Shown piece after piece: positions 47,403 through 47,896 of a stretch of 64,000 nt of DNA; positions within the stretch are counted from its first letter, which is position 1; each line of letters opens with the position of its first letter. A program made the position numbers and the translations under genes. Under the pieces are notes generated by a model, which saw only the letters and a list, made by a program, of their open reading frames with translations, ran no database searches and was not told where the DNA came from. Source of the stretch: Peribacillus frigoritolerans (lineage in GTDB: Bacteria > Bacillota > Bacilli > Bacillales > DSM-1321); contig NZ_CP158190.1 in the NCBI RefSeq assembly GCF_040250305.1, positions 100,001-164,000 of the forward strand. The letters run 5' to 3'.

Positions 47403-47896
47403 CTTGGTGCATTCCTATATTACAAAGGGTATAATGGATTTCGCGAGAGCATTCGCACATTTATTAATCAGGTTCTTGTACTTGGTATTCCCTGAATTGG
47501 GCGATTACTTTTTAAGTGATCTTCATGGACATATCCGGTCGGCAAAATTGATGAAGAAATGCAGTGACTCTATTGGGATTCCTAAAGAGTCGTGATATAG
47601 AGGGTTGAAAGAAGCTATGTCAGGCGTGCGCCTTTCAAACATCTCCCATGCTATTCAAACCTATGTCGAGACTAATTGCTTCTCTATTTCGAGAGTATGT
47701 CGGTCACGGAATCGGTCAAGACTTACATGAGGGCCCATAAAATCCTCATTTCGGTCCAACTGATAAAGGTCCTCAGTTAAAGCCTGGTTCTACAAAATGG
47801 TGAATACTTGATGCAGAATTGTAAGACTTATGAGGATGATTGGACTGTAGTAATGTTGACGGAAAGATGTGTACCTTTAATAGGTTCACGCATAGA
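47403..47896 (+). pseudogene. map: Decayed methionine aminopeptidase gene (map remnant)
   Basis: Recognisable Map segments occur in order but in different frames with stops. They are KGYNGF...NQVLVLGIP at 47403-47492, YPVGKIDEEMQ at 47532-47564, and GVRLSNISHAIQTYVE ending at 47670. Next come REYVGHGIGQDLHE at 47690-47731, HFGPTDKGPQLKPG from 47747, then KTYEDDWTVV (47823-47852) and VDGKMC. About 250 bp are missing relative to a ~750-bp gene, including the N-terminus and the first metal-binding aspartates. The position between adk and infA is the normal place of map. The product cannot be functional. Confidence 0.93.

Follow-up and report, generated by a model that had tools for sequence, protein, structure and literature searches.

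When a gene in a conserved cluster loses its protein, does the DNA left behind drift freely or is it still held by selection? The interval between adk and infA in this Peribacillus genome raises that question, as an earlier sequence-only reading had placed a pseudogene of map (methionine aminopeptidase) there, inside the spc-alpha ribosomal cluster, and had ascribed its state to relaxed selection. All coordinates below are those of the window, the 64-kb stretch analyzed here (positions 100001–164000 of a 5.6 Mb single-contig genome). The genome belongs to the simplex/frigoritolerans group of Peribacillus: the named records nearest to its Adk are those of P. simplex, P. frigoritolerans, P. butanolivorans and P. 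muralis, along with Bacillus sp. records. The interval first given for the pseudogene, 47403–47896, is close, but the whole spacer runs from 47350 to 47914.

46696..47349, + strand: adk, intact, with a TTG start as listed (ORF list)
47350..47914: the whole adk-infA spacer
47391..47852, + strand: dead map, its Map similarity spread over three frames and broken by stops and one lost block (tblastn)
47915..48133, + strand: infA, intact and nearly invariant in the clade (sequence, relatives' loci, change counts)

The adk TTG start at 46696 is preceded in the window by GGGGGAAG. On the other side of the spacer, the fourfold sites of infA and rpmJ (47915–48287) are nearly invariant in the clade, with 2 changes at 45 sites, and more so than those of other ribosomal genes of the cluster.

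A dead map gene between adk and infA

The cluster map of this genome is dead. A tblastn search of the window with relatives' intact cluster Map returned pieces at 47400–47564 in frame 3 (47391–47564 with the L053 query), 47578–47694 in frame 1 and 47681–47788 in frame 2, along with a piece at 47823–47852 in frame 3 that was matched by the L053 query only. The E-values are 4.6e-34 (L030 query) and 2.6e-33 (L053 query), the pieces keep their order, and stops lie inside them. Map residues at about codons 84–100 are absent from the relic, and the first 46 residues are covered by none of the tblastn pieces in the spacer. The longest stretch without a stop on the + strand of the spacer is 65 codons, the ORF list for both strands holds none longer inside the spacer, and no Map reading frame was found between adk and infA in the window. 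The ordered, significant similarity and the lack of an intact frame confirm the pseudogene, and the search bears out its description as fragments in at least three frames with stops and missing blocks.

The same lesions recur in close relatives. In 20 of the 61 genomes compared, the whole adk-infA query was matched at 95–100%, with spacers of 561–567 nt; several of these assemblies are single-contig, and one further genome was added from the wider genus sample. Sequencing error as the cause of the broken frames is therefore ruled out, and the near-identical relic, present in 21 of the 36 genus genomes, can serve as the lineage marker that had been suggested. Across the genus the cluster map is dead in 29 of 36 genomes (the 21 with the near-identical relic and 8 with other dead forms) and intact in 7. 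A FastTree phylogeny of 93 loci, 53 with map intact and 40 with it lost, requires six or more changes of state, and the starred branches force six. Loss of map at this place is thus not the unusual event it had been taken for. In the order sample, 321 of 397 genomes have a match at E ≤ 1e-100; the other 76 fall under a threshold, which is not proof of loss, and among them are genuine losses and perhaps genes that have diverged.

The enzyme is still encoded elsewhere, as had been predicted from the sequence. A genome-wide search found five Peptidase_M24 matches with open frames, of which three are Map-sized and score above the cut-off of TIGR00500 (type I methionyl aminopeptidase); the remaining two, at 353 and 374 codons, would by their size be Xaa-Pro type aminopeptidases. 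These three type I genes outside the cluster would carry the enzyme function of the dead copy. For one (G000:C1:628825-629562), a counterpart of 80–99% identity is present in 34 of 34 other genus genomes compared, whether the cluster map is dead or alive. The third Map-sized gene (C1:882373) presumably resembles YflG.

A comparable redundancy exists in B. subtilis, where type I methionine aminopeptidase is likewise encoded by more than one gene in a genome. According to the study describing it (PMC1266368), map is essential and yflG non-essential, both products are active enzymes, and the activity of the map promoter is 50–100 times that of yflG. The difference is that the cluster map is essential there, whereas here it is dead and accompanied by three other type I genes.

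Uneven rates and clustered retention

To describe rates within the relic, we used 20 simplex-type genomes sharing the lesions, with L141 (asahii) left out of the change counts. Three parts of the spacer matter for what follows.

47350..47420, + strand: fast first part of the spacer, an internal control (ML speed 0.86, change counts)
47421..47511, + strand: element E1, the most conserved part of the relic (ML speed 0.070, change counts)
47556..47766, + strand: element E2, conserved strings and possible hairpins common to dead and intact Peribacillaceae map (ML speed 0.160)

Under a partitioned likelihood, the fourfold sites of adk evolve at an ML speed of 1.72, so that E1 is 24 times and E2 11 times slower, while the first part of the spacer evolves half as fast as those adk sites. 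The remaining stretches, 47512–47555 and 47767–47914, have speeds of 0.37 and 0.22. Fitch counts agree with these speeds for the relic blocks: against 82 changes at 79 adk fourfold sites, there are 29 changes at 51 sites in 47350–47400, 4 at 91 in 47421–47511, 6 at 110 in 47541–47650 and 0 at 42 in 47691–47732, these sub-blocks having been picked after inspection of the data. Elsewhere in the same 20 genomes, the fourfold sites of three non-ribosomal genes reach 4.10, and three intergenic regions have speeds of 0.49, 1.09 and 0.18. The rpsK-rpoA spacer, an ordinary one, is at 0.18 about as slow as E2, which counts against the reading favored below.

Divergence gives a similar picture. Among the 25 noncoding stretches longer than 120 nt compared in the window, some of which contain short genes or RNA genes missed by the ORF rule, the relic has a divergence of 0.0174 in six genomes; of the 24 others, 7 are lower, one is without aligned data and the rest are higher. 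With divergence and rates on a par with those of other slow spacers, the relic behaves as functional spacer and not as dead DNA, and the rates indicate that it is under purifying selection as noncoding DNA. Relaxed selection therefore holds for the protein, whose frame is broken, but not for the DNA, most of which is far slower than the adjacent synonymous sites. Near-neutral evolution, a criterion for pseudogenes, is not what the rate tests found in this relic.

A comparison of dead with living copies shows where the constraint lies. The alignment of E2 (47556–47766) contains 14 dead and 12 intact Peribacillaceae sequences, 26 rows in all, and two of its strings are named here.

47632..47650, + strand: string M3, CTTTCAAACATCTCCCATG (26-row alignment)
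47711..47732, + strand: string M5, whose last 19 nt are GGTCAAGACTTACATGAGG (26-row alignment)

CTCT, AGAGTC, ATAGAG and the 19-nt part of M5 are identical in 26 of 26 rows, and M3 is identical in nearly all; between these strings, the dead rows differ in letters and length. We assessed clustering at 154 positions with a clear ancestral letter from the intact rows, in six dead Peribacillus lineages with pairwise adk fourfold identities of 0.42–0.65, five of which belong to the main clade and may stem from one death or several. Of the 154 positions, 59 underwent change in one or more lineages. The longest run without change spans 22 positions, a length equalled in 1 of 5000 permutations, and the clumping of unchanged positions was reached by none of 5000. 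Over seven dead lineages of the order, the best-retained stretch is map codons 160–175 (p = 0.0006); this test supersedes one over 20 dead copies, which gave a stronger p but took kin copies as independent.

Retention at codons 136–182 exceeds that elsewhere in Peribacillus (0.88 against 0.47), G003 (0.92 against 0.27), Mesobacillus maritimus (0.80 against 0.16), Neobacillus (0.73 against 0.14) and Heyndrickxia (0.73 against 0.45). The preference is weak in the N. endozanthoxylica pair (0.38 against 0.19), and in Niallia these codons are not preferentially retained (0.45 against 0.46). E1 is deleted in two dead lineages of the genus (the G009 group and G003). The adk-infA spacer of G003 (L031), at 358 nt, records a loss of its own, after which little of map remains outside E2.

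Niallia holds a separate conserved noncoding relic. In five genomes with a dead map, the first 322 nt are 0.85–0.89 identical over eight comparisons between species groups, against 0.62–0.69 at adk fourfold sites and 0.50–0.55 over most of the remaining dead map, while one of two close pairs (adk 0.98) shows no contrast with adk (0.985 and 0.947). Since the retained stretch contains the E1 codons, E1 persists in two separate losses, and other losses have deleted it. The Niallia spacers (L086, L109, L092, L101 and L089) are 832–882 nt long, and the 3' half of the dead map is not conserved in them. The only part of a Niallia relic that matches other order genomes (54 of 397) corresponds to map codons 36–66.

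Constraint in living map genes and competing readings

Constraint on nucleotides is also visible where map is alive. In 12 intact Peribacillaceae genes, synonymous conservation peaks at codons 45–66, 114–152 and 162–176; the synonymous excess reaches at most 0.49 in map, compared with 0.38 in adk from the same set of taxa, and expressed in SD units the map peaks do not exceed those of adk. In 42 sequences from 42 genera (40 picked from the best-scoring matches listed in the order sample, plus two family members), there is one dominant peak, at codons 36–66, and E1 overlaps these codons of strongest synonymous constraint across the order. This feature was noted in L246–L285 and in the intact map of L030 and L131. 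The intact-gene profile and the relic rates agree significantly per codon (rho −0.16, reached in 2 of 170 shifts), while the concordance of smoothed peaks is not significant (46 of 170 shifts); the formal concordance is modest. The synonymous profile of Peribacillaceae has little or no correlation with the profiles seen in other groups (−0.11, 0.25, 0.27).

The constraint on E1 could reflect an element acting in DNA only, chiefly an internal promoter for infA–rplQ whose −10 would be the TATAAT at 47430–47435. This hexamer persists in dead map copies from the simplex group, massiliglaciei, asahii, G020 and Niallia, and the map codons around it are constrained across 42 genera. However, a consensus scan found no site in the spacer, two near-consensus SigA/sigma-70 hexamers above chance were not found in the simplex relic, and with our own weights the TATAAT site reaches 8.6, compared with 8.4 ± 1.9 for shuffled sequence. 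Moreover, E1 is deleted in some dead lineages, and E2 is left unexplained. With its sole candidate at chance level and E2 unaccounted for, a promoter alone seems the less likely explanation, and we consider it improbable.

Low variation might instead have nothing to do with the relic and arise from low local mutation, frequent interspecies recombination or hitch-hiking with infA. The surrounding ribosomal genes are indeed also slow at fourfold sites (0.46–0.78), and infA and rpmJ are nearly invariant. Such a cause is hard to reconcile with the sharp rate steps within the spacer (0.86, 0.070, 0.37, 0.16), with the fast adk next to it, or with a relic distance that grows with neutral distance (r 0.76, in a sample including one asahii genome), and we give it little chance. 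A plain pseudogene, recently dead and varying freely, would account for the broken frames and deleted blocks, and the intact paralogs fit it; but the core evolves 8- to 24-fold below the rate of adk fourfold sites across a 20-genome radiation sharing the lesions, and retained positions are clustered, which makes it very unlikely. A new small protein in another frame can be all but dismissed: a 63-codon frame (47404–47595) is open in 18 of the 20 genomes, but it is frameshifted in the other 2, its substitutions have no clear codon periodicity (10, 6, 10), and the indels that separate conserved strings have lengths not divisible by three.

A candidate cis element nested in map

We favor, by somewhat more than an even chance, a reading in which map housed nucleotide-level elements, probably with a role in the adk-infA mRNA, that were kept when the protein was lost. 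The coding sequence would have carried E1 and E2 as well as the protein; after the loss, deletions and frameshifts would have removed or scrambled the DNA around them while selection preserved both. The constrained DNA is likely a cis element of the adk-infA interval, and E1 and E2 would most likely act in the mRNA between the two genes. It is possible that they form an RNA leader or processing signal tuning infA, rpmJ, rpsM, rpsK, rpoA and rplQ, with E2 made up of short hairpins and exposed conserved strings. The possible hairpins are as follows.

47566..47591, + strand: H1, GACTCT/AGAGTC, with a loop of 11–15 nt across 26 rows (consensus fold)
47600..47645, + strand: H2, GAGG/TCTC and TTGAAAG/CTTTCAA (consensus fold)
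47659–47716: H3, weaker (consensus fold)
47681..47695, + strand: H4, small, with a variable loop (consensus fold)
47720..47756, + strand: H5, GACT/GGTC and TGAGG/CCTCA (consensus fold, shuffled controls)

In the alignment of dead and intact rows, stems persist around loops of variable length (11–15 nt and 7–11 nt). All seven helices pair more often than synonymous-shuffled controls in 12 family genes, a set that had itself contributed to deriving the structure. Beyond the family, pairing is clearly above shuffled controls for the inner stem of H5 only, which is complete in 0.74 of 42 sequences (controls 0.11) and in 0.28 of 40 (controls 0.08). Compensatory base changes gave no covariation support (1 observed, 1.0 in shuffles), folding energy is modest (mean z −1.42 on the + strand and −0.77 on the − strand), and single-sequence folding in 120-nt windows showed no excess. 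The alignment fold reaches z values as low as −5.4 (+ strand) and −5.0 (− strand), on which we do not rely since the column shuffle ignores codon structure; the strong fold of the opposite strand makes map slightly less probable as the host of a regulatory RNA. RNA structure in the relic is no more than suggested, and the relic matches no described RNA family in Rfam.

The 19-nt part of M5 is single in the genome within 3 mismatches, and M3 has one exact occurrence, with nine weaker matches (2–3 mismatches) against three for a reversed control; further genomic copies of the two strings are not supported by these searches. TCTCCC in M3 is complementary to GGGAGA 5' of infA, and a role for this pairing is offered as an idea, not a result.

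Pseudogenes that retain a regulatory function are a known general class, and the relic resembles them in being a dead coding gene whose DNA appears still selected. It differs in that the constraint overlaps areas already synonymously constrained in intact genes and in its position inside the spc-alpha ribosomal cluster. Ribosomal protein operons can carry leader RNAs, such as the L10 and L20 leaders, and the likeness here is a conserved noncoding stretch with possible hairpins 5' of translation-factor and ribosomal genes. Unlike those leaders, the relic is without Rfam match or covariation support, and wherever map is alive, its element sits inside that upstream coding gene. Among the titles listed by literature searches on cluster map loss or a conserved noncoding element and on spc-alpha or infA promoters, with subscription papers mostly outside their reach, none reports this case.

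Gene death at this locus is a natural experiment that parts selection on protein from selection on nucleotides, and the dual-function hypothesis for map is directly testable here. Two stretches nearly unchanged across relatives suggest that a non-protein signal within map outlived map. The relic points to hidden cis elements in a bacterial gene cluster that ranks among the most conserved, hosted by a gene that is essential in its B. subtilis form, and cautions that 'pseudogene' need not mean 'unconstrained'. More tentatively, and with the balance against it, map throughout Peribacillaceae may host a hidden spc-alpha regulatory RNA, which would have remained the sole selected function once paralogs freed the protein, with a parallel in Niallia and perhaps Neobacillus.

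A promoter-like feature was seen in other genera. An extended −10-like site (TATG-N-TATAAT or close), absent from the simplex relic in a scan with our own weights, lies 5' of infA in spacers from Mesobacillus, Neobacillus, Niallia and Cytobacillus; the loci are L084 (−70 from infA), L113, L103, L098, L099, L104, L115, L086, L101 and L089, and also L073 (−139) and L055 (−237), both of which have an intact map.
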